Below, one piece after another: positions 9,792-25,062 of a DNA stretch of 64,000 bases. The notes under the pieces are model-generated. The model saw only the letters and a program-made list of their open reading frames with translations. It ran no database searches and was not told the origin of the DNA. Source of the stretch: Streptomonospora nanhaiensis (lineage in GTDB: Bacteria; Actinomycetota; Actinomycetes; Streptosporangiales; Streptosporangiaceae); assembly GCF_013410565.1 (NCBI RefSeq), contig NZ_JACCFO010000001.1, positions 1,798,001 through 1,862,000 of the forward strand. The letters are read 5' to 3'. Each line of letters opens with the position of its first letter. Within the stretch, counting starts at the first letter, position 1. Position numbers and translations under genes: made by a program.

Positions 9792-10781
9792 GTGTCCGTC
9801 CCCGTCTCCCTGCTCGACCTGGCGCCCATCAACGAGGGCATGACCGCACGCGACAGCTTCGAAGCCAGCGCGGCCGTGGCCCGCAGCGCCGACGAACTGG
9901 GCTACCGGCGGATCTGGTACGCCGAGCACCACAACATGGCCACCATCGCGTCCTCGGCCACCAGCGTGCTGATCGCCCACATCGCCACCCTCACCCGCCG
10001 CATCCGCCTGGGCGCGGGCGGGGTGATGCTGCCCAACCACGCGCCGCTGACCATCGCCGAGCAGTTCGGCACCCTGGCCACGCTGCACCCCGACCGCATC
10101 GACCTGGGGCTGGGCCGCGCGCCCGGCAGCGACCAGAACACGATGCGGGCGCTGCGCCGCGACCCCGCCTCGGCCGACACCTTCCCCCAGGACGTGCTGG
10201 AGCTGCAGGGCTACCTCACCGGCAACTCCCGGATCCCCGGCGTGGACGCCATTCCCGGCAAGGGCACCAACGTGCCGCTGTACATCCTGGGGTCCTCCCT
10301 GTTCGGCGCCCGGCTCGCGGCGGCGCTGGGGCTGCCCTACTCCTTCGCCTCGCACTTCGCCCCGGCCGCGTTGCAGGAGGCCGTGGCGCTCTACCGGCGC
10401 GAGTTCAGCCCCTCCGACCAGCTCGCCGAGCCCTACGTGATCGCCGGCGTCAACGCCACCGCCGCCGACACCACCGAGCAGGCCAAGGAGCAGGCGCACC
10501 TGGCGCGGCGGCGCATGGCCGCCCAACTGCTGGCGCGCGGGCGGACGCTCACCCCCGAGGAGGCCGACGCCGCCCTCGACTCCCCGGCGGGCCGGCAGGT
10601 CATGCAGATGGCGACGTACTCGGCCGTGGGCACGCCCGGCGAGGTGCGCGAGTACCTCGCCTGGTTCGCCGGGCACGCCGAGGCCGACGAGCTGATCGTC
10701 GCGCCGCAGGCCGGGACCCTGGAGGGCCGGCTGCGGACCGTGGAACTCGTGGCCCAGGCCATGGAGGCCACGGCCGGCTGA
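9792..10781 (+). CDS. LLM class flavin-dependent oxidoreductase
   Basis: A 329-residue protein of the bacterial luciferase-like monooxygenase superfamily, in the MsnO8/YhbW-like branch. The N-terminus [11 protein letters not shown] and the [10 protein letters not shown] segment are diagnostic, as is [10 protein letters not shown] further on. Members use reduced FMN supplied by a separate reductase to oxidise small substrates. The start is a GTG 11 bases after GAAAGG; upstream in-frame sequence is antisense to other features and not conserved. It shares its promoter region with the divergent dehydrogenase. Confidence 0.88.
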
Positions 10782-10871
10782 CATCGCGCGGTGCCGCGCG
10801 GCACCGCGCCGCGCCGCCCGGGACCTACGGCGTTTTCGCAGGTCAGACAAATGTGAACACACGACTCGCGT

Positions 10872-10900
10872 TTGCCTTTGCGGGTCGGACGGGTCAGAGT
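10872..10900 (+). promoter_or_regulatory. Possible sigma-70-type promoter of the UvrA-like gene
   Basis: TTGCCT and CAGAGT are separated by 17 bases. This stretch is the least GC-rich part of the 209-bp gap, and its start site would lie about 85 bases before the ATG. Confidence 0.35.
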
Positions 10901-10990
10901 TGAGGCACTCCCGACCCGATCCGACCCCTGGCCTGTAGGGGTCTGCCGCCGCATGCCCGCGCGGCGGCGCCACCCCCTGAGAGGACCCAC

Positions 10991-13327
10991 ATGACCCGGT
11001 CAGCCCCCTCCCCCGACACCGAGGGCTCCCCGTCCGGCGGCGCGTCCACCGATGCGCCCGCCGCCGCGCCGCCGATCGTCATCCGCGGCGCGCGGGTGCA
11101 CAACCTCAAGGACGTCTCCGTCGAGATCCCCAAGAACCGGATCGTCGTGTTCACCGGCGTCTCCGGCTCGGGCAAGTCCTCGCTGGTGTTCGGCACCGTG
11201 GCCCAGGAGGCCCAGCGCCAGCTCAACGACACCTACCCGGCGTTCGTGCGCGGGTTCCTGCCCAAGTACGAGAAGCCCGAGGCCGACCACGTCGACAACC
11301 TCTCGGCGGCGATCGTGGTGGACCAGAAGCCGGTGGGCGGCAACTCCCGCTCCACGGTGGGCACCGCCACCGACATCCACCCCCAACTGCGGGTGCTGTT
11401 CTCGCGCATGGGCGAGCCCTCGGCCGGGATGTCCTCGGCCTACTCCTTCAACACCCCCGCCGGGGCCTGCCCCGAGTGCCAGGGCCTGGGCCGCAAGGTG
11501 GAGCTGGACCCCGACACGTTCTTCGACCTGTCCCGCTCCCTCAACGACGGCGGGGTGCGGTTCCGGCCGTTCGAGGGCGGCATTGCGGGCAGCATGTGGA
11601 CGGCGGTGCTCGACGGCGACAAGCCCCTGGGGGAGTTCACCGAGGAGGAGTGGCACACGCTGCTCCACGGCGGGCGCGACAAGACACTGAAGGTCCCGGT
11701 CGAGACCGGCAGCGGCACCTACAACATGACCTACGAGGGGATCGCCGACCGCTTCGAGCGCCTCTACCTCAAGCGCGACATCTCCGGTATGAGCAAGCGC
11801 AGCCGCGAGGCGGTGCAGGCGGTGATCCGCGAGGGGCGGTGCCCGGCGTGCGACGGTGCCCGGCTGGCACCGGCGGCGCTGGCCTCGCGCATCGACGGCC
11901 GCAACATCGCCAACTGGACCGCGATGGAGCTGGACGACCTCATCGGGGTGCTGGAGGGGATCGACCACCCCCAGGGCACTCCCATCGCGCGCTCGGCCGC
12001 CGCCGCGCTGCGCCGGCTCAGCGACATCGGCCTGGGCTACCTCAGCCTGGACCGCGAGACCACCACGCTGTCGGGGGGCGAGGCCCAGCGGCTGAAGATG
12101 GTGCGCTACCTGGGGTCGTCGCTGGTGGGCATGACCTATGTGTTCGACGAGCCCAGCACCGGACTGCACCCCCACGACGTGGGGCGGCTCAACCGCCTGC
12201 TGAAGGCGCTGCGCGACCGGGGCAACACGGTGCTGGTGGTCGAGCACGACCGCGACGTGATCGCGATCGCCGACCACGTCATCGACATGGGGCCGCTGGC
12301 GGGCGCCAACGGCGGCCAGGTGGTGTACGCGGGGCCGCCCGAGGGGCTGCGCGCCGGCGACACCCTCACCGGGCGGTGCCTGCGGCGGACCACCGGGCTG
12401 AAGGAGGCTGTGCGCGAGCCGCGCGGCTGGCTGCGCGTGGACAACGCCCGGCGGCACAACCTCAAGGACGTGTCGGTGGCGGTGCCCACCGGCGTGCTGA
12501 CCGTGTTCACGGGGGTGGCGGGCTCGGGCAAGAGCACGCTGGTCACCGACGTGTTCGCCGCCGCCCACCCCGATGCGGTGCTGATCGGGCAGCAGGCCAT
12601 CACCGCCTCCAGCCGCTCCACCCCCGCGTCGTTCCTGGGCATCATGGACCCGCTGCGCAAGAGCTTCGCCGACGCCAACCGGGTGGACCCGGGCATGTTC
12701 AGCTTCAACTCCAAGGGCGCCTGCTCCGCCTGCGGGGGGCGGGGCGAGATCACCGCCGAGATGTCGTTCATGGACCCGGTGACCATGGTGTGCGAGGCGT
12801 GCGAGGGGCGGCGCTACGACACCTCGGTGCTGGCCTACCGGCTGCGCGGCCGCACCATCGCCGAGGTCATGGCGATGACCGCGGAGGAGGCCGCGGGGTT
12901 CCTCACCGAGCCGAGGATCGCGGCGCAGCTGCGGCAGCTGATCGAGGTGGGGCTGGGCTACCTCACGCTGGGCCAGGAGCTGAGCTCGCTGTCGGGCGGC
13001 GAGCGGCGGCGGCTGAAGCTGGCCACCCACCTCACCAAGCGCGGCGGGCTCTACATCATCGACGAGCCCACCAACGGGCTGCACATGGCCGACGTCGACA
13101 CCCTGCTGGCGCTGCTGGACCGGCTGGTGGACGCGCGCAACACCGTGGTCGTGATCGAGCACGACCTCGACGTGGTCAAGCACGCGGACTGGGTGATCGA
13201 CCTCGGTCCGCACGGCGGCAAGGACGGCGGCCGGATCATGTTCGAGGGCACTCCGCACGACCTGGTCAAGGACGAGCACTCGCTGACGGCCCGCCACCTG
13301 CGGGCGGACCTGGCGGCCGCCGGGTAG
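10991..13327 (+). CDS. UvrA-like ABC ATPase (short UvrA paralogue)
   Basis: A 778-residue twin-ABC protein of the UvrA family, shorter than true UvrA (about 950). Walker A motifs are GVSGSGKSS (56-64) and GVAGSGKST (about 507). Signatures LSGGEAQR (about 360) and LSGGERRR (about 669) and both Walker B motifs (DEPSTGLHP, DEPTNGLH) are present. Zinc-finger cysteines are visible (CPECQG, CPACDG, CSACGG, CEACEG). The insertion that binds UvrB appears reduced. Relatives include UvrA2 and the DrrC drug-resistance protein, so DNA-damage or drug tolerance is likely. ATG is preceded by GAGAGGA. Confidence 0.88.
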   Translation: MTRSAPSPDTEGSPSGGASTDAPAAAPPIVIRGARVHNLKDVSVEIPKNRIVVFTGVSGSGKSSLVFGTVAQEAQRQLNDTYPAFVRGFLPKYEKPEADHVDNLSAAIVVDQKPVGGNSRSTVGTATDIHPQLRVLFSRMGEPSAGMSSAYSFNTPAGACPECQGLGRKVELDPDTFFDLSRSLNDGGVRFRPFEGGIAGSMWTAVLDGDKPLGEFTEEEWHTLLHGGRDKTLKVPVETGSGTYNMTYEGIADRFERLYLKRDISGMSKRSREAVQAVIREGRCPACDGARLAPAALASRIDGRNIANWTAMELDDLIGVLEGIDHPQGTPIARSAAAALRRLSDIGLGYLSLDRETTTLSGGEAQRLKMVRYLGSSLVGMTYVFDEPSTGLHPHDVGRLNRLLKALRDRGNTVLVVEHDRDVIAIADHVIDMGPLAGANGGQVVYAGPPEGLRAGDTLTGRCLRRTTGLKEAVREPRGWLRVDNARRHNLKDVSVAVPTGVLTVFTGVAGSGKSTLVTDVFAAAHPDAVLIGQQAITASSRSTPASFLGIMDPLRKSFADANRVDPGMFSFNSKGACSACGGRGEITAEMSFMDPVTMVCEACEGRRYDTSVLAYRLRGRTIAEVMAMTAEEAAGFLTEPRIAAQLRQLIEVGLGYLTLGQELSSLSGGERRRLKLATHLTKRGGLYIIDEPTNGLHMADVDTLLALLDRLVDARNTVVVIEHDLDVVKHADWVIDLGPHGGKDGGRIMFEGTPHDLVKDEHSLTARHLRADLAAAG

Positions 13328-15624: not shown

Positions 15625-18198
15625 ATGGCCGGGACTAGAACACGTTTCAAACGGTGGGCCGTGGGCGCGCTCTGCGTCGTGACCGGCCTGGCGCTGCTGG
15701 CCGCCGCGGCCGGGTTCTGGTCCGTGCGGCGCGCCTTCCCCCAGACCCAGGGCGAGCTGGCGCTGCCCGCCCTTGAGGGCGAGGCCACCGTCTACCGCGA
15801 CGGCCGCGGGGTGCCGCACGTCTACGCCGCCACCGCCGAGGACCTGTTCCGGGCGCAGGGGTTCGTGCACGCCCAGGACCGGTTCTGGCAGATGCACTTC
15901 AACCGCATGACCACCGCCGGGCGGCTGGCCGAGCTGTTCGGGCCCGACCAGGTGGGCACCGACGTCTACCTGCGCACCATGGGCTGGCGGCGCGTGGCCG
16001 AGCGGGAGTACGACCTGCTGGAGCCCGACACCCGCGCCTACCTCGACGCCTACGCCGAGGGGGTCAACGCCTACCTGGACCAGCGGGGCGGCGGGGAGCT
16101 GGGCCTGGAGTTCACCGTGCTGGGCGTGCTCAGCCCCGACCACGAGGTGGAGCCCTGGACCGCCGTGGACAGCCTGGCCTGGCTCAAGGCCATGGCCTGG
16201 GACCTGCGCGGCAACATGGCCGAGGAGATCGAGCGGGCGGGGCTGGTGGCCGACGGGCTCACCCGCGAGCAGGTGGAGGAGCTGTACCCGGCCTACCCCG
16301 AGGAGGAGCACGCGCCGATCGTCTCCGGCGGGCGGGTCCGCGACGGCGCGTTCGAGCCGGACCCCGGCCCGGGCGCCGGTGACGGCGGCGACACCGCCCT
16401 CCCCCCGGCCGACGCCGCACCCGCGCTGGCCGAGGTCGGCGCGGGCCTGGCCGCCGTCCCGCCGCTGGTGGGCCCGCACTCCTCGGGGCTGGGCTCCAAC
16501 TCCTGGGTGGTCTCGGGCGAGCACACCGCCTCGGGCCTGCCGCTGCTGGCCAACGACCCCCACCTGGGGGCGCAGATGCCCTCGGTGTGGCACCAGACCG
16601 GTCTGCACTGCACCGAGGTCACCGACGCGTGCCCTTTCGACGTCACCGGGTTCGGCTTCGCCGGGCTGCCGGGCGTGGTCATCGGCCACAACGCCGACAT
16701 CGCGTGGGGGTTCACCAACCTGGGGCCCGACGTCGCCGACCTCTACCTGGAGCGGATCGAGGGCGACGCCGCCGTGGTCGACGGCGAGCACGAGCCGCTG
16801 CGGACCCGCGAGGAGACGGTGCGGGTGGCCGGGGGCGCCGACGTCACCTTCACCGTCCGCTCCACCCGCCACGGCCCGCTGCTCTCGGACGCGGCCAGCG
16901 CCCTGGACCTGCGCGACATCGGCGAGGCCCCGCCCGTGGACGCCGAGGGCCGCCCCGCCGAGCAGGCCGCCGCCGCACCCGAGGGCGGCTACGGGGTGGC
17001 GCTGAGCTGGACCGCGCTGGAGCCGGGCACCACGGCCGACGCGATCTTCGCGATGAACGCCGCCGAGGACTTCGCGTCCTTCCGCGAGGCGGCCCGCTCC
17101 TTCGCCGTGCCCGCGCAGAACCTCGTCTACGCCGACACCGAGGGCACCATCGGCTACCAGGCTCCGGGCACGATCCCGGTGCGCGGCGCCGGGGACGGCC
17201 GCTGGCCGGCGCCCGGCTGGGACTCCGACTACGACTGGAGGGGCTACCTCGACTTCGACGAACTGCCCACCGTGACCGACCCGGAGTCGGGGTTCATCGT
17301 CACCGCCAACCAGGCCGCCGTCGGGTCGGACTACCCCCACCTGCTCACCGCCGACTGGGACTACGGCTACCGCTCCGAGCGGATCCGCACCCTGCTCGCC
17401 GACGCCGTGGGGCGCGGCGGGCTGACAACGGCCGACATGGGCGAGATCCAACTGGACAACGAGAACAGCGGCGCCCGCGCGATCGTCCCCTACCTGCTCG
17501 ACGCCCCGGCCGAGGGCACCGCCGCCGAGGGGCGCCGGCTACTGGCCGAGTGGGACTTCCAGCAGGACGCCGACTTCGCGGCGGCGGCCTTCTACAACGC
17601 GGTCTGGCACCACCTGCTCGACCTCACGTTCGACGAACTGGGCAGCGGCTACCCCATGGACGGCGGCTCGCGCGGCTGGCTGGTGGTCAGCCGGCTGCTG
17701 GAGGACCCCGGCTCGCCGTGGTGGCGGGGCACGGTGGCCGACGGCCGCGACGCGGTCCTGGCCGAGGCGATGGAGCGCGCCGCCGAGGAGCTGGCCCAGA
17801 CCCTGGGCGAGGACCCGCGGTCGTGGCGCTGGGGTGACCTGCACACCCTCACCGCGGGCCACCCGTCGCTGGGGTCGTCGGGGATCGCCCCGCTGGAGTG
17901 GGTGTTCAACGGCTCCACGGTGGAGTCGGGGGGCGGCACCAGCGTCGTCAACGCCACGGGCTGGGACCTGGCGGAGGGCTACGCGGTGACGACGGTGCCG
18001 TCGATGCGCATGACGGTCGATTTGGCCGACTTCGACCGGTCCCGCTGGATCGACCTCACCGGCCCCTCGGGCCACGCATTCCACCCCCACCGCGAGGACC
18101 AGACCCCGCTGTGGGCCGCGGGCGAGACCATCCCCATGCGCTTCACCCGCCCGGCCGTTGAGGAGGCGGCCGTGGACGTCCTCACCCTGCGCCCCTGA
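15625..18198 (+). CDS. Penicillin acylase family protein
   Basis: An 857-residue Ntn-hydrolase precursor. An N-terminal hydrophobic segment (about residues 12-32) exports or anchors it. The alpha-chain region contains YAATAEDLFRAQGFVHAQDRFWQM. The autoproteolytic junction is LG-SNSWVVSG, making Ser291 the catalytic N-terminal nucleophile of the beta chain. NDPHLGAQMPSVWHQ and the Asn/Arg residues of the family follow. It hydrolyses amide bonds of beta-lactams or acyl-homoserine lactones; the substrate cannot be told from sequence. Expressed alone, with a weak ribosome site. Confidence 0.9.
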   Translation: MAGTRTRFKRWAVGALCVVTGLALLAAAAGFWSVRRAFPQTQGELALPALEGEATVYRDGRGVPHVYAATAEDLFRAQGFVHAQDRFWQMHFNRMTTAGRLAELFGPDQVGTDVYLRTMGWRRVAEREYDLLEPDTRAYLDAYAEGVNAYLDQRGGGELGLEFTVLGVLSPDHEVEPWTAVDSLAWLKAMAWDLRGNMAEEIERAGLVADGLTREQVEELYPAYPEEEHAPIVSGGRVRDGAFEPDPGPGAGDGGDTALPPADAAPALAEVGAGLAAVPPLVGPHSSGLGSNSWVVSGEHTASGLPLLANDPHLGAQMPSVWHQTGLHCTEVTDACPFDVTGFGFAGLPGVVIGHNADIAWGFTNLGPDVADLYLERIEGDAAVVDGEHEPLRTREETVRVAGGADVTFTVRSTRHGPLLSDAASALDLRDIGEAPPVDAEGRPAEQAAAAPEGGYGVALSWTALEPGTTADAIFAMNAAEDFASFREAARSFAVPAQNLVYADTEGTIGYQAPGTIPVRGAGDGRWPAPGWDSDYDWRGYLDFDELPTVTDPESGFIVTANQAAVGSDYPHLLTADWDYGYRSERIRTLLADAVGRGGLTTADMGEIQLDNENSGARAIVPYLLDAPAEGTAAEGRRLLAEWDFQQDADFAAAAFYNAVWHHLLDLTFDELGSGYPMDGGSRGWLVVSRLLEDPGSPWWRGTVADGRDAVLAEAMERAAEELAQTLGEDPRSWRWGDLHTLTAGHPSLGSSGIAPLEWVFNGSTVESGGGTSVVNATGWDLAEGYAVTTVPSMRMTVDLADFDRSRWIDLTGPSGHAFHPHREDQTPLWAAGETIPMRFTRPAVEEAAVDVLTLRP

Positions 18199-18291
18199 CC
18201 GCCCCGGCGCCGCGCACGCCGCAATCCCCTGACACGCGGAAGGCCCCCGCCCTAGGCTGTTGATGCGAGTCGACCGACCTGGAGCGTGGCA

Positions 18292-19482
18292 ATGGACGAT
18301 TCCCCCCGAACCCCCTCCATCGGTGAGCGCGTGCGTGCGGCCCGGCGTGCCAAGGGCATGAACCTCGACGTCCTGGCGGGACTCGTCGGGAAGTCCAAAG
18401 GCTGGATGTCGATGGTCGAGAACGGGCGGATACCGCTCGACAAGCGCGCGGACATCGCCGCCATCGCCGAGGTGCTGGAGGTCTCGGCGGACACCATCCT
18501 CGGCGGGCCCGCCGACGACGTCCACGCCCGTCTCCCCGGCATCAACCTCGTCCGGCTGCGCGAGGTCCTGCACGAGTACTCCCTGGACGACCCGCCGGAC
18601 GTGCCCGTGCGCCCGCTCGACCAGACCGCGGCCGACCTCCGCACACTCGACACCCGGTTGCGCCGCACCGACTACGACGCCATGATGCGGACCCTGCCGG
18701 GGGTGCTGTCCGAACTGCACGCCGGAGCGCACCTGGCCGAGCCCGACCGCTCCGAGGCCCTGCGCCAGCTCATCACCGCCTGCGGCCTCGCCGTCATCGT
18801 CATGCGGCACTTCGGACACAGCGACCTCGCGTGGATCAGCGCCGACCGGGCCCGGCAGGCGGCGGTGTGGCTGGCGGACCCCGTGTGGAGCGCGGCGGCG
18901 GCCTACCACAGCGCGCACGCCCGCCCCTCGGCGAACCGGTCGCGGGCGCTGCTGGCCACCCCCCGGATCGCCGACGAACTGGAGCCGCACATCGGCGACG
19001 ACCCGATGGCCCACCAGGTCTACGGCATGCTGCGGTTGAGCGCGGCGCTGGCGCACCAGGTGTCCGGTGAGCACGACGCGGCGCGCCGCCAGGCGGATGA
19101 GGCGGCGCGGCTGGCGGAGCGATTCGACACCGGCGACGACCCCCAGGCGTGGGAGCTGTTCGGGGTCTCGAACGTGGGCGTGTGGCGGACCATGCTCGCG
19201 GTCGAGGCCGAGGACCCCGGCGAGGCCATGCGCATCAGCGACCGTGTCGACACCGGCGCCTTGGCGTCGAGGAACCGCAGGGCGGCCCTCCACATGGACC
19301 GGTTTCGGGCCCTGCACATGCTCGGCCGGGACAAGGCGGCGGCCCGCGAACTCCAGAAGGCCGAACGCCTCTCCCCGGCCCAGGTGCGGCACTCGCCCCT
19401 GATCCGCGAGACGGTCCGCGACATGGCCCGGGTCAAGGACCCGGTGTTGCGGGGCCTCGCCTGGCGGATGGGCGTCATCTGA
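18292..19482 (+). CDS. XRE family transcriptional regulator
   Basis: A 396-residue regulator with an N-terminal helix-turn-helix (about residues 10-70; GERVRAARRAKGMNLDVLAG, SKGWMSMVENGR) and a long helical TPR-like C-terminal part, the layout of the abundant actinomycete XRE regulators that usually pair with a small DUF397 gene. The ATG is chosen over the GTG two codons earlier because GGAG lies 7 bases before the ATG. Two inverted repeats follow the gene, then two coupled small genes that are not DUF397. Confidence 0.88.
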   Translation: MDDSPRTPSIGERVRAARRAKGMNLDVLAGLVGKSKGWMSMVENGRIPLDKRADIAAIAEVLEVSADTILGGPADDVHARLPGINLVRLREVLHEYSLDDPPDVPVRPLDQTAADLRTLDTRLRRTDYDAMMRTLPGVLSELHAGAHLAEPDRSEALRQLITACGLAVIVMRHFGHSDLAWISADRARQAAVWLADPVWSAAAAYHSAHARPSANRSRALLATPRIADELEPHIGDDPMAHQVYGMLRLSAALAHQVSGEHDAARRQADEAARLAERFDTGDDPQAWELFGVSNVGVWRTMLAVEAEDPGEAMRISDRVDTGALASRNRRAALHMDRFRALHMLGRDKAAARELQKAERLSPAQVRHSPLIRETVRDMARVKDPVLRGLAWRMGVI

Positions 19483-19517: not shown

Positions 19518-19549
19518 TGCGTACCGCACACCTACGGTCACGGTATGCA
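19518..19549. promoter_or_regulatory. Inverted repeat, operator candidate before the small genes
   Basis: TGCGTACCG and CGGTATGCA are complementary with one mismatch and are 14 bases apart. They lie in a locally AT-richer stretch that is the likely promoter for the two small downstream genes. Confidence 0.4.
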
Positions 19550-19787
19550 CAGGCCACATCCTGGCGAGGGCGCCCCCGGGCAGTGGGGCGCGGGGCACGC
19601 CCGCCCGCAGCGGGCGCGGCACGCGACCGGCGAACACGGGCGCCCTCCCGAACCCGAGAAGACGGCGGCCGCGCGGCGGCCGCGCCCGCTCATGCGCGGT
19701 GACGGGCTCGACGACGTCCCGCGCCGCCCTCCAGCCGCTCGTACGCCGGTGGATCGAGTGCCGCCGGGCGTCCGGGGAGGGGCCGCG

Positions 19788-20024
19788 ATGACCCCCCTCC
19801 CCTCCCGCGAGTACACACCGCGCCCGCTGGACCGCGACACCTACGAGCGGTTCGTCGCCGTCACCCTGGCGCACCGGGGCTGGTGCGCGCGGTACTCCGC
19901 CGACGAGTCCGGTGACGTCTACTACCAGGCGGTGCACCACGGCTCCGGCGACACCGTCGGGTCCTACGACCTGGACAGGTTCGCCCTCCTGCTGGCCGCC
20001 GCCGACGCGGCGGCCGCCCGGTGA
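19788..20024 (+). CDS. Small protein of unknown function
   Basis: A 78-residue soluble protein I do not recognise. It begins MTPLPSREYTPRPLDRD and contains aromatic-rich strands (ARYSADESGDVYYQAVHH) followed by a short Ala-rich helix, suggesting a compact alpha/beta fold. GGGGAGGGG sits 5 bases before the ATG. Its last codon overlaps the GTG of the next gene (GTGA), so the two are translationally coupled. Its place behind an XRE regulator is where a DUF397 gene usually lies. Confidence 0.7.
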   Translation: MTPLPSREYTPRPLDRDTYERFVAVTLAHRGWCARYSADESGDVYYQAVHHGSGDTVGSYDLDRFALLLAAADAAAAR

Positions 20025-20251
20025 ACCTCGACCCGGGCGTGCGCGACCTCCTCTCGGCGGTGGTGGAGTCGCTGAGCGTCGAGCCGCCGCACCGCGTCGA
20101 GGACATCGCCGCCTACCGGAGGGAACTGGCCGCCCGCGCGATCCGCACCCGCGCGGTCCTGCTGGTCCTGCCGGCCCTGGGCCCCGAACCGCCGGGGATC
20201 GTGGCCGCCACGACGGAGGCGCTGCGCGGCACCGCCCGGCAGCGCCGGTGA
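20021..20251 (+). CDS. Small helical protein of unknown function
   Basis: A 76-residue protein starting at a GTG that overlaps the stop of the preceding gene by 4 bases. It is mostly helical, with a hydrophobic stretch VLLVLPALG near residue 45 that is too short for a clear membrane anchor. No family is recognised. Coupling implies that it acts with the 78-residue protein. Confidence 0.6.
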   Translation: MNLDPGVRDLLSAVVESLSVEPPHRVEDIAAYRRELAARAIRTRAVLLVLPALGPEPPGIVAATTEALRGTARQRR

Positions 20252-20592: not shown

Positions 20593-22020
20593 ATGAGCCC
20601 CAGCCACAGTCAGGACGGGCCGCCCGCCGGCTGCCCCCTCCACGACAACGCCGTCCCCCTCCCCGACTTCACCGCCGACGGCGTCGACCCCGCCGACTAC
20701 CTGGAAGGGCTCCGCGCCACCTACGGCGCCCTGGCGCCCGTGGACTTCGAGGCGGGCGTGGCGGCCTGGCTCGTGCTCGACTACTCCGCGCTGGCCGAGG
20801 TCCTCAAGGACCCGCACCGCTTCCCCCGAGCCTCCGGGCACTGGCGCGAGCAGGTCGAGGGCCGCTTCCACCCCGGCATGGCGATCCACACCCTGTTCAG
20901 CGACCGCGGCGGCCTCAACGCCCTCTGCCTTGACGGCGAGCGCCACCGCCGCCGCCGGGCCGCCATCAAGTGGGCGCTGGACACCCTCGGCGGCGCCCGG
21001 GTGCGCATCGACGCCGCGCAGCTCGCCGACATCGCCGTCGACGGCTTCTGCGCCGAGGGCCGGGCCGACATCGTCACCGACTTCGCCGCCGTGGTGCCCG
21101 CGCTGATGCTCAACCGGTGGTTCGGCATGACCCAGGAGGAGTTCGGCGACCTGGTGGAGTGCATGGCCCGCCAGTGGGAGGTCGACGCCGACTCCATCCA
21201 GGCCCAGCAGCGGCTCGTCAAGCACGGCACCCGCGTCGCCGAGGCCAAGCGCGCCGCGCTGAAGGCGGGTGAGATCGGGCCCGGCCACGACCTGGTGGCG
21301 GCGCTGGTGTCGGCGCCGCAGAACCTCACCGACATCGAGATCGCCTTCGACCTCGAACTGCTCATCGCCGCCTCGGTCGACCCGGTGAAGAACCTCATCG
21401 CCAGCACCGTGCGCCTCCTGCTCACCGACCGCGCCATCGCCAGCGAGGTCGCCGGCGCGCGGGTCAGCGTGTCCGACGCGGTGGACCGGGTGCTGTGGAC
21501 CGATCCGCCCATCGCCACCCTGCCGGGCCGCTTCCCCACCGCCGACGTCGTGATCGAGGGCCGCACCGTCCGCGCGGGCGAGGGGCTGGTGCCCTGCTAC
21601 CTGGCCGCCAACCGCGACCCCAAGCTGGGCGCCCAGACCCTGGGCTCGGGCAACCAGTCCTACCTGTCCTTCGGCGCGGGGGCGCACGCCTGCCCCGCGC
21701 GCGGCATGGGCATCGGCGCGGTCGCCACCGCCGTCGAGACGCTGCGCCGCCGGCTGCCCGACATGCGGTTGGCCGTGGCCGCCGACGACATCCGCCCCCT
21801 GCCCACCGTCTACCGGCGCGGCCCGCAGAGCCTGCCGGTCACCTTCACCCCCGCACCCGTCCAGGCCACCGCGAACGGAGGCGCCCCGTGGAACCCGTCG
21901 AACTCCCCGTCCGGCTCGACCCCCGAGCCGCCGACGTCCACGGACAGGCCCGGCTCCTCCGTGGGATCGGCCCCCTTGTCCAGGTTCGTCTCCCGGGTGA
22001 TGTCGTTGTTTGGGCGGTGA
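20593..22020 (+). CDS. CYP157-like cytochrome P450 lacking ExxR
   Basis: A 475-residue P450. The heme-binding loop FGAGAHACPARG is intact with the cysteine ligand at residue 367. The K-helix reads VDRVLW-TDPP (297-302 plus), so the normally invariant ExxR is replaced by R299-x-x-W302. The I-helix has AASVDP instead of the oxygen-activating A/GGxDT. Loss of ExxR is known in the actinomycete CYP157 family, which typically sits beside CYP154, as here. Its last 43 codons overlap the next gene. Catalytic ability is doubtful; a redox or partner role is possible. Confidence 0.85.
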   Translation: MSPSHSQDGPPAGCPLHDNAVPLPDFTADGVDPADYLEGLRATYGALAPVDFEAGVAAWLVLDYSALAEVLKDPHRFPRASGHWREQVEGRFHPGMAIHTLFSDRGGLNALCLDGERHRRRRAAIKWALDTLGGARVRIDAAQLADIAVDGFCAEGRADIVTDFAAVVPALMLNRWFGMTQEEFGDLVECMARQWEVDADSIQAQQRLVKHGTRVAEAKRAALKAGEIGPGHDLVAALVSAPQNLTDIEIAFDLELLIAASVDPVKNLIASTVRLLLTDRAIASEVAGARVSVSDAVDRVLWTDPPIATLPGRFPTADVVIEGRTVRAGEGLVPCYLAANRDPKLGAQTLGSGNQSYLSFGAGAHACPARGMGIGAVATAVETLRRRLPDMRLAVAADDIRPLPTVYRRGPQSLPVTFTPAPVQATANGGAPWNPSNSPSGSTPEPPTSTDRPGSSVGSAPLSRFVSRVMSLFGR

Positions 22021-23150: not shown

Positions 23151-23206
23151 GGGCGCTTGCGCCATAATCGGTGCCGCCCCCCGAACCGCGGCGAGAGGAC
23201 GGCGGC

Positions 23207-23929
23207 ATGGCGGCACCCCTGGAGGACCTCCGCCGGGAGCTGGCGGAGCTGGCCCCGCTCGCCGACGACCTCACGCCCGCCAACCTCGCGCGGCTGCGGG
23301 AGCGCCTGCCCGCCCTGGTCGAGGACCTGGAAGCGCACCTGGTCGAGCGGCGCCGGGGCCCGGCGCGGATGCACGCGCTGCGCGCCAACCGCCTGCTGGG
23401 CGACGCCCTGTACCGCGAGGGCGTCCAGGCGCTGCGCGCCCGCGACCACGGCCGGGCCGAGCGCCTGCTGCTCGCCGCGGGCGAGGAGCGCGTGGCCGCC
23501 GCCCTGCGCCTGATCGGGTGGAGCGCCCGGGTCGCGGTGCCGTCCCTGGACAACGAGGCCGGGGAGGCGGTGCGCGAGGGCTGGCAGGCGTGCTGGGAGC
23601 TGACCAAGGCCCAGCGCGGCAACGGCCGCTGGCGGGCGGCCGAGCAGGCGCTGAAGGCGGTGGCCGCGCGGGTCGCGGCCGACGGGCCCTACGAGGCCGT
23701 CGCCCAGGACCTGAAAGCGGTCCAGGCGAAGCTGGAGCAGGTGGACCTCAAGGACAGCGGCCACCCGGTGCGCGCCGCGCTGCGGGGCCTGCGGCCCGAC
23801 GTCCGCCGGGCCGCCCGGCCCGCTCCCACGGTCTCGGGCCACACCGCCGCCACGGGCGGACCGCCCGGTCCGCCGCAAGCGCCGTTCTTCTCCAGCGGCA
23901 ACTACGAGCGGCGCACCCGGGGGCGCTGA
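23207..23929 (+). CDS. Helical protein of unknown function
   Basis: A 240-residue protein that I cannot assign. The first 190 residues are predicted almost entirely helical, with heptad-like Leu/Ala spacing (EDLRRELAELAPLADDL and later) and several basic patches. The last 45 residues are Pro/Gly-rich and disordered, ending SSGNYERRTRGR. GAGAGGA precedes the ATG. It follows the P450 pair by 56 bases and is convergent with another orphan gene only 23 bases away. Confidence 0.65.
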   Translation: MAAPLEDLRRELAELAPLADDLTPANLARLRERLPALVEDLEAHLVERRRGPARMHALRANRLLGDALYREGVQALRARDHGRAERLLLAAGEERVAAALRLIGWSARVAVPSLDNEAGEAVREGWQACWELTKAQRGNGRWRAAEQALKAVAARVAADGPYEAVAQDLKAVQAKLEQVDLKDSGHPVRAALRGLRPDVRRAARPAPTVSGHTAATGGPPGPPQAPFFSSGNYERRTRGR

Positions 23930-23952: not shown

Positions 23953-25062
23953 TCAGCCCCGGCGGGCGCCCCGGGGGGCCGGCAGGGCCGGGGTGGTGTG
24001 CGCCCGGCGGCCCGGGGACACGCCTTGCGCGGCCTTGACGACGGCCCTGCGCACGCCGCCGGGCGGACCGCTGATCCCGCGCTCGCCGCCCAGGTAGCCC
24101 GATTCGTTCGGGTCGGTCGGCGCCGAGACCACGCGCGCCCGCTGGACCCGCTGCTCCAGCGCGGCGAGCGGGGCGCCGACGCGCTCGCGGTACTGGGCGC
24201 GGGTCTCGTCGGCGCGGCGCAGGAGGTCCCGGCCCGTGTTCCGGCCGGCCTTCCTGATCCGGTCGAGGGCGTCCCGGCCGAAGCGGTACGCGTCCAGGTG
24301 CTTCCCCATGTCGTGCAGGACCTCGACCAGGCGCCGCGCGGCCGACACGGCACGGGCGTGCAGCGGGCCGTACTCCGCGGTGGTGCGCTCGTACAGCTCC
24401 CGGCGCGCCGCCGTCAGCTCGGACTCCCATCCGCCGCTGCCTGGGGTGATCCGCATCCGGCGGCCGACGGCGCTGTTGAAGGCCACGGGGTCGTCGGCGG
24501 ACGCGGACGCGGCGCGGACGTCGTCCTGCCTGGCCTCCAGGTGGCGGACAAGGCGGTCGAGCACCCGAAGCCGGGTGCGGCCCGCCGCGCGGGCCTCGGT
24601 GTGCTCGCCCGCGGCCGCGAGGAAGTCCTGGGCCGCGCGGTACTTGAGGGCCGCGCCGCCGAGGTGGCCGGCCCGCACCAGCAGGGATCCGATCCGCTCG
24701 GAGATCCGGCCGCGCTCGGCCAGGTGGTCGCGGCTCTGGGGGTCGTAGCGGCGCAGCCGCTCCTCCTCGACCGCCGCGGCGGCCAGCGGGCTGGTCTTGG
24801 CGACCTCGGCCGCGAGCGCGGCGAGGTCGCGGGGCACGAGGATGCTGTGGGTGCGGATGCCCTTCTTGGAGTCGGTGTTGTAGGCGAGCGAGGCGGTGGT
24901 GCCGGTCCAGCGGCGGTGGGCCTCGGCGAGGACCGCGCGGGTGTCGAGGTCGGCGAAGGCGAAGTCCTGGGGCGCGTGGTCGGCGAACTCCCGCAGGTAG
25001 ATCTCGGCGAACACCGCGAGGGAGCGGGCGTCGTGTGCCGCCTTGTCCGTGCTGTCGGCCAT
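23953..25062 (-). CDS. Helical-repeat protein of unknown function
   Basis: A 369-residue soluble protein without a recognised domain. It appears to be built from antiparallel helices of TPR-like length, with a short strand-rich part near residues 50-75 (TASLAYNTDSKKGIRTHS). The last 60 residues are Arg/Gly/Pro-rich. GGAAGGG is 9 bases before the ATG. It is convergent with the preceding orphan, and hairpin-forming GC runs cover both stop codons. Confidence 0.65.
   Translation of the reverse strand: MADSTDKAAHDARSLAVFAEIYLREFADHAPQDFAFADLDTRAVLAEAHRRWTGTTASLAYNTDSKKGIRTHSILVPRDLAALAAEVAKTSPLAAAAVEEERLRRYDPQSRDHLAERGRISERIGSLLVRAGHLGGAALKYRAAQDFLAAAGEHTEARAAGRTRLRVLDRLVRHLEARQDDVRAASASADDPVAFNSAVGRRMRITPGSGGWESELTAARRELYERTTAEYGPLHARAVSAARRLVEVLHDMGKHLDAYRFGRDALDRIRKAGRNTGRDLLRRADETRAQYRERVGAPLAALEQRVQRARVVSAPTDPNESGYLGGERGISGPPGGVRRAVVKAAQGVSPGRRAHTTPALPAPRGARRG

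Follow-up and report, generated by a model that had tools for sequence, protein, structure and literature searches.

Cytochrome P450s carry an ExxR motif in the K-helix, and its charge network is a feature of these enzymes. The loss of this motif in CYP157, a family that pairs with CYP154, is said to have been described by Rupasinghe in 2006, and what ExxR-less P450s do has been asked ever since. The 64-kb stretch of DNA analysed here (the window), from a soil actinobacterium, contains such a pair of genes. P1 (20593–22020, + strand; ATG at 20593, TGA at 22020) encodes a CYP157-like P450-fold protein of 475 aa that keeps the heme cysteine, and P2 (21888–23150, + strand) encodes a CYP154-type P450 of 420 aa. 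What does a P450-like protein without ExxR do together with a canonical P450? We analysed its motifs, its gene overlap with P2, its C-terminal tail and its relationship to conservons.

Heme site, K-helix and I-helix of P1

P1 escapes the Pfam p450 model (PF00067), and surveys that rely on domain models may therefore overlook it. When the PDB was searched with phmmer, P1 matched 350 distinct chain sequences at E ≤ 0.01, with CYP154C2 as the top match. The AlphaFold model of P1, built from 32 sequences, had a mean pLDDT of 85.9 and a pTM of 0.86, and Foldseek ranked CYP154C1 first for this predicted fold (TM-score 0.89 by target). The heme-ligand loop FGAGAHAC (F360 to Cys367; 21670–21693, + strand) is intact, as the first-pass annotation had stated. 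P1 is a member of the cytochrome P450 fold superfamily with a Cys heme-ligand loop.

To place these residues in the family, 120 aligned rows were used: 75 come from named genomes, and 45 were collected from the window and by searching the genus and the family. The family search covered 200 family genomes at E ≤ 1e-70, with at most 8 candidates scored in each, and flanks were obtained for 20 of the 22 matches outside the genus. The named set is biased because it was picked as the best 80 among the matches listed to P1's own alignment; three duplicate fetched loci were removed, and two loci (L186 and L189) gave no row after the length and score filters, which left 75. The heme Cys is kept in all 120 rows, the window included. 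In the P1 alignments made, H118 is invariant, and R120 and R122 are at least 90% conserved.

The K-helix of P1 (D298-R-V-L-W302; 21484–21498, + strand) was located by the family alignment and reads V-D298-R299-V-L-W302. The E and R positions of ExxR are occupied by R299 and W302, so the earlier claim of R299-x-x-W302 in place of ExxR agrees with the alignments. No intact ExxR was found at this place or elsewhere in the K-helix in any of the 120 rows. Trp stands at the Arg position in 117 of 120 rows, and N, D or E stands one residue before the E position in 119; the E position itself holds E in 55 rows and R in 5. Across the family, the K-helix follows the pattern [N/D/E]-x-x-[L/I/V]-W, in which the acid precedes the E position of ExxR by one residue. 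R299 is therefore a variable site, and D298 and W302 form the conserved pair. PMC3599690 gives EVLW for CYP157A and EQSLW for CYP157C, both with Trp at the Arg position. Because these fit the same pattern (for CYP157A with the residue before E read by ourselves from LNEVLW rows), the DRVLW of the window is of the family type, with Arg at a free position. A sequencing error in the K-helix is unlikely, since the 89%-identical P1 ortholog in a separate genome (locus L082 of genome G003) has the same VDRVLW. The ExxR loss is a trait of the whole P1 family.

The I-helix of P1 (A260-S-V-D263-P264; 21370–21384, + strand) was located by the phmmer alignment to CYP154C2 and by the family alignment. It had been described as lacking both members of the acid/Thr pair. 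The loss of Thr stands, with P264 at its position, and the loss of the acid does not, as D263 is kept. Across the family, the Thr position holds Pro in 99 and Thr in 8 of 120 rows, so Thr is absent from 112. The FDxxR stretch ahead of the heme loop corresponds to a 6-residue gap in P1 in the alignment to CYP154C2, and an FxxR-like pattern at this place was found in 6 of 120 P1 rows versus 34 of the 36 P2 rows tested. P1 is thus without the ExxR and the acid-plus-Thr pair of canonical enzymes, and it differs from CYP154s in lacking ExxR, Thr and the FDxxR stretch. Surveys that require both EXXR and CXG class single-motif proteins as pseudo-P450s, according to PMC7369989. CYP157-type proteins might still catalyse.

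An out-of-frame overlap between P1 and P2

P2 carries the canonical motifs EEVLR, AAGFETT and FGWGPHHC, and it is 46% identical (181/397 positions) to CYP154C1, the nearest fold to the P1 model. More than 40% identity is the convention for a P450 family (PMC3599690). P2 is a CYP154 by identity above 40% to a named member and by its canonical motifs.

P2 had been described as lying beside P1, which has to be corrected: it starts 133 nt inside P1. A GGAGG (21877–21881, + strand) within P1, six bases before the GTG at 21888, is the probable P2 ribosome-binding site. The overlap (21888–22020, + strand) is out of frame and encodes the linker and tail of P1 together with the N-terminus of P2, and the P1 stop falls in the WAVT codons of P2. 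With positions extrapolated from the alignment to the window P2, an overlap of 106–136 nt was found in 37 rows (the window and 36 further ones), with 133 nt in 14 of them. Its length is always 1 modulo 3, one phase in all 37 rows. According to PMC2542354, long same-strand overlaps have this phase less often than the other (7,465 of 29,015). Close to where P2 should begin, 29 of 37 pairs have a ribosome-binding motif with a start codon; at control places within P2, the same rule was satisfied in 93 of 925 cases.

In the overlap, P2 is identical to CYP154C1 at 20 of 40 positions, which marks this segment as real P450 sequence. A P2 start further downstream at GTG 22017, which overlaps the P1 stop, is disfavoured because of this segment and because of the ribosome-binding motif ahead of GTG 21888. 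A fused P1-P2 protein was also considered and rejected: 18 ORFs of more than 750 aa had a P450 match, and each match lay in a single stretch. In one locus (L094, G004:C1:2031000-2049000) the P1 frame extends 424 residues past the P450 core through the P2 region; since near relatives differ, this long frame is probably a frameshift in that copy.

Synonymous changes in P2 were rarer in the overlap than in the remainder of the gene. Pooled odds ratios from 200 random draws of disjoint near pairs were 0.55–0.83 (median 0.67), and the median p was 0.006, with p < 0.05 in 86% of the sets, p > 0.05 in 14%, and 0.22 at worst. We prefer these figures to a first pooled test with 12 pairs chosen after the per-pair results (odds ratios 0.53, p = 0.0018, and 0.60, p = 0.013), which the random sets do not fully match in strength. 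For the pair of the window and L082 alone, the depletion was absent in the overlap (5/40 versus 44/316), and the L106-L107 pair showed the opposite trend (6/32 in the overlap versus 7/342). A long dual-coding overlap in 37 rows is a useful case for the study of overlapping-gene evolution.

The C-terminal tail of P1

Residues 460–474 of P1 (21970–22014, + strand) are predicted from the sequence and the AlphaFold model to form a cationic amphipathic helix. In the model, this helix has a pLDDT of about 60 and follows a linker mostly below 50; the tail helix modelled for a Streptomyces relative (L135) is shorter, with a pLDDT of about 40. A tail past the P450 core is present in 70 of the 120 family rows. 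It is 38–109 residues long, has a cationic end and is often rich in Trp and Leu.

A HeliQuest-type factor, which combines amphipathicity and charge, was calculated. It exceeded 0.68 in 69 of 70 tailed rows; the counts were 31/50 for the other P1 rows and 24/45 for P2 C-termini. Values above 1.34 were reached in 46/70, 1/50 and 4/45, respectively. The mean charge of the last 18 residues was +3.5 for tailed rows, +0.8 for other P1 rows and +1.6 for P2 C-termini. Positive charge alone is no discriminator, since a net positive end was observed in 38/50 other P1 rows and 37/45 P2 C-termini as well as in 70/70 tailed rows.

Where the tail is encoded over P2, its amphipathicity was compared with a null in which the P2 N-terminus was recoded synonymously 500 times per pair (36 of the 37 overlapped rows; L111 was dropped). 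The mean moment was 0.60 versus 0.39 for the null, with p < 0.05 in 23 of 36 rows, which are related and so do not make 36 independent tests. The other 13 tails fail to beat the null, and those of L115, L116 and L120 do not look amphipathic. On average the tail is more amphipathic than the P2 protein sequence forces. Shuffles of the same composition gave a further comparison: non-overlapping tails reached 0.70 versus 0.46 (Wilcoxon p = 1.8e-7, 24 rows), overlapped tails 0.59 versus 0.44 (p = 5.5e-5, 27 non-redundant rows, 12 of which beat the shuffles singly), and tail-less P1 rows were hardly amphipathic (p = 0.054, 17 rows).

The same kind of tail is carried by non-overlapping relatives (KGTFWSGFLSWWKG and similar). 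Two loci, L086 and L087, are nested among overlapped relatives; their adjacent P2 is gone and the frame is no longer CYP154-like, and the tail helix persists. They keep TLSDLLSMLRR(R/K)R where their sister L084 has SLSAFLAMFRRGR, and tested singly against shuffles these two tails gave p = 0.054 and p = 0.082. A CYP154-like gene about 4.5 kb from P1 in L086 is not the lost P2, because it is 39% identical to the P2 of L084, versus 85% for the P2 of L085. In 8 tailed family rows no P2 lies downstream of P1 (in one of them, L101, an opposite-strand CYP154-like gene adjoins), which shows that P1 can be kept without an adjacent P2.

FtsA has a C-terminal membrane-targeting helix. The C-terminal amphipathic helix of MinD is also a membrane-targeting sequence (PMC6803595). 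The predicted P1 tail would resemble both as a short C-terminal amphipathic helix, but it is set on a P450 fold and is known as a helix by prediction from sequence, and the resemblance is drawn without a claim of homology. Judged from sequence and model, the P1 tail is probably membrane-binding. If it is a membrane anchor, it offers a simple first handle on function, and relatives of the L086/L087 type separate the tail from P2. No report of the P1 tail or of the P1/P2 gene overlap was found in the openly accessible part of the literature on CYP157/CYP154, CvnE-type P450s and amphipathic-helix P450s. The overlap and the amphipathic tail are new here; the ExxR loss in CYP157 was already published.

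Relationship to conservons and the possible role of P1

P1 had been called CYP157-like. This holds for its K-helix type, with no ExxR and with Trp at the Arg position, and for its pairing with a CYP154; pairs of this kind are also present in the Streptomyces loci examined. The support falls short of strict CYP157 membership: the best identity was 37%, below 40%, to the nearest conservon-linked relative examined, the comparison partner being this relative and not a named CYP157 sequence. P1 further differs from CYP157 of Streptomyces in the Arg at the E position, the 133-nt overlap with P2 and the missing conservon. Its long tail is absent from those LNEVLW-type genes that directly follow a conservon GTPase and have no P2 after them. 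By sequence, relatives adjoining conservon GTPases, the CvnE-type accessory P450s, belong to the same protein family as P1, but P1 lacks the synteny with CvnA-D. A sensory or modulating role has been proposed for CvnE-type accessory P450s, and the function of CvnE accessory proteins is called unknown, in the conservon literature (PMC13343842).

Seeds and profiles were derived from the conservons of this genome and from relatives, and with them no conservon gene was found in the 64-kb window, which confirms the earlier observation that none lies near the pair. In the genome, DUF742 matches exceed the cut-off at 8 loci. The nearest match is about 398 kb away, and no P450 match lies within 20 kb of any of these loci. 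The pair had also been presented as special in standing alone, and this was not supported by the relatives. A P1 gene was counted as embedded when a same-strand conservon GTPase lies within 3 kb upstream, in fetched stretches of about 8 kb on each side. Among 26 P1-like places (E ≤ 1e-40) in six genomes of the genus, 4 were embedded and 22 were not, 3 of the latter sharing their fetched stretch with a conservon. The flanked family loci gave 2 of 20 embedded. In the rows from named genomes, which are mostly Streptomyces, a conservon GTPase stands directly upstream in 59 of 75.

A tree of 68 of the 120 rows was built by a quick method after an 85% identity filter, with SH-aLRT as its only support measure. 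It placed the window on the 25-row side of a split (SH-aLRT 99). On this branch, 19 of 25 rows overlap a P2, and embedding in a conservon was seen in none: the position directly upstream never holds a conservon GTPase in these 25 rows. Standing apart from conservons is therefore a property of the lineage, not an oddity of this genome. The branch nevertheless bears traces of conservons. In L096, a divergent conservon lies about 1.5 kb away and carries its own tail-less P1. In L114, a lone roadblock-type gene (10670–11035, 137 bits) was found directly behind P2, with no other conservon genes found in that stretch; L112 and L119 gave weak isolated conservon-gene hits. Two further loci, L120 and L150, have a conservon followed by a tailed P1 with an overlapping CYP154, directly behind the conservon GTPase. 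This arrangement is a possible ancestral state joining the conservon and the CYP154 overlap, and if so the overlap would have arisen before the lineage parted from conservons.

With two P450 hallmarks lost and a probable membrane tail present, P1 looks more like a partner or sensor than like a hydroxylase. The first-pass annotation had proposed a partner or regulator, which fits the evidence; we infer the partnership of P1 with P2 from the gene architecture. Our leading proposal, which we hold tentatively and at a little under an even chance, is that P1 is a heme-thiolate, CYP157/CvnE-like and membrane-docked partner or sensor, probably non-hydroxylating and co-translated with the CYP154-type P2. 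In P1, ordinary hydroxylation has probably been lost, with the ExxR charge network gone and the oxygen-activating Thr replaced by Pro. The flexible linker and the cationic amphipathic helix would dock P1 on the cytoplasmic side of the membrane. Because the P1 helix is encoded out of frame over the P2 start, a single mRNA would yield both proteins, and their amounts would be linked. The heme pocket of P1 may bind a lipophilic ligand, which P1 could present to P2 at the membrane; alternatively, P1 could recruit or modulate P2 there. The chemistry would be done by P2 as a normal CYP154-type monooxygenase. What the sequence shows is the loss of motifs, the predicted fold, the overlap, the conserved tail and its amphipathicity above that imposed by P2; membrane binding, hydroxylase loss, the shared mRNA and P1-P2 cooperation are what we infer. 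A broader reading, which we regard as doubtful, is that in a widespread actinobacterial heme-protein lineage the P450 fold became a non-oxygenating ligand sensor or substrate presenter docked on the membrane; the lineage would have left the conservon G-protein system and become wired to a CYP154 by an overlap encoding both the anchor and the enzyme start.

The main rival to a membrane-docked partner of P2 is a CvnE-like ligand sensor that serves as a kinase input. Here the partner of P1 would be a histidine kinase or membrane regulator elsewhere in the genome, the CYP154 would make or destroy the ligand, and the tail would bring P1 to its membrane partner. It is consistent with the conservon GTPase found directly upstream in 59 of the 75 rows from named genomes, with the 8 DUF742 loci of this genome and with the occurrence of P1 without an adjacent P2. 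So is PMC13343842, where accessory proteins, P450-type ones included, are proposed as inputs or modulators of sensor-less histidine kinases and one P450-type protein is modelled on the kinase ATPase domains. Yet no branch row has a conservon GTPase directly upstream, though L096 lies about 1.5 kb from one conservon, 19 of 25 overlap a P2, and a kinase was not found among the ten scanned neighbours of the window pair; we consider this explanation unlikely. P1 could also be a competent P450 with unusual chemistry, in which ExxR is dispensable, heme is bound through the retained Cys and His-Arg residues, and the I-helix Pro favours peroxide- or substrate-assisted reactions. The universal heme Cys, the invariant H118 with the conserved R120 and R122, and the retained I-helix acid argue for it, but with Thr, E, R and FDxxR all missing in P1 and Thr absent from 112 of 120 rows, we find it improbable.

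Another explanation concerns the tail, which might be a functionless by-product of the overlap, namely the conserved N-terminus of P2 in another frame. The P1 stop and the Gly-Arg with which the tail frequently ends do come from the WAVT codons of P2, and the 13 of 36 tails that do not beat the recoding null also speak for it. The same tail type, however, occurs without overlap, and L086 and L087 keep it with the adjacent P2 gone, so that we give this explanation little credence. It is more improbable still that P1 is a heme-free scaffold and allosteric activator of a neighbour, as EryCII and DesVIII are for glycosyltransferases. P1 weakly matches the TIGR04515 model of P450-derived activators (66 bits, versus a cut-off of 343), and EryCII is a P450 fold used as a partner protein (PMC3391682). 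But EryCII and DesVIII lack the heme Cys, which is present in all 120 family rows, and no glycosyltransferase was seen among the ten scanned neighbours. With its heme Cys and its score below the cut-off, P1 falls outside the class of P450-derived glycosyltransferase activators. A membrane-docked partner or sensor working with P2 is still the reading we prefer.

Other features of the surrounding genes were also recorded. Between a penicillin amidase gene (15625–18198) and P1 lie a regulator gene with an XRE-type HTH domain (Pfam HTH_31; 18286–19482, + strand) and two small ORFs (19545–20251, + strand). The regulator has no match in the ortholog stretch of G003 (L082) and so is not an integral part of the locus; there, the penicillin amidase gene is directly upstream of the P1/P2 pair. 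Two convergent genes follow the pair (23171–23929, + strand, and 23953–25062, − strand). They belong to no clear Pfam family, with one weak below-cut-off match to DUF6092, and among the fetched stretches compared their matches were solely in L082. In L135 (5029–6303) and similar Streptomyces loci, a canonical-ExxR P450 stands about 116–198 nt behind a conservon-linked tailed P1. These P450s are far from CYP154 (74–121 bits to P2), so the family of the partner enzyme differs by lineage. Recurrent neighbours, considered as clues and set aside, were identified by eye as methyltransferase-like genes in 12 of 52 loci and kinase-like genes in 9 of 52, much of which is synteny of near relatives.
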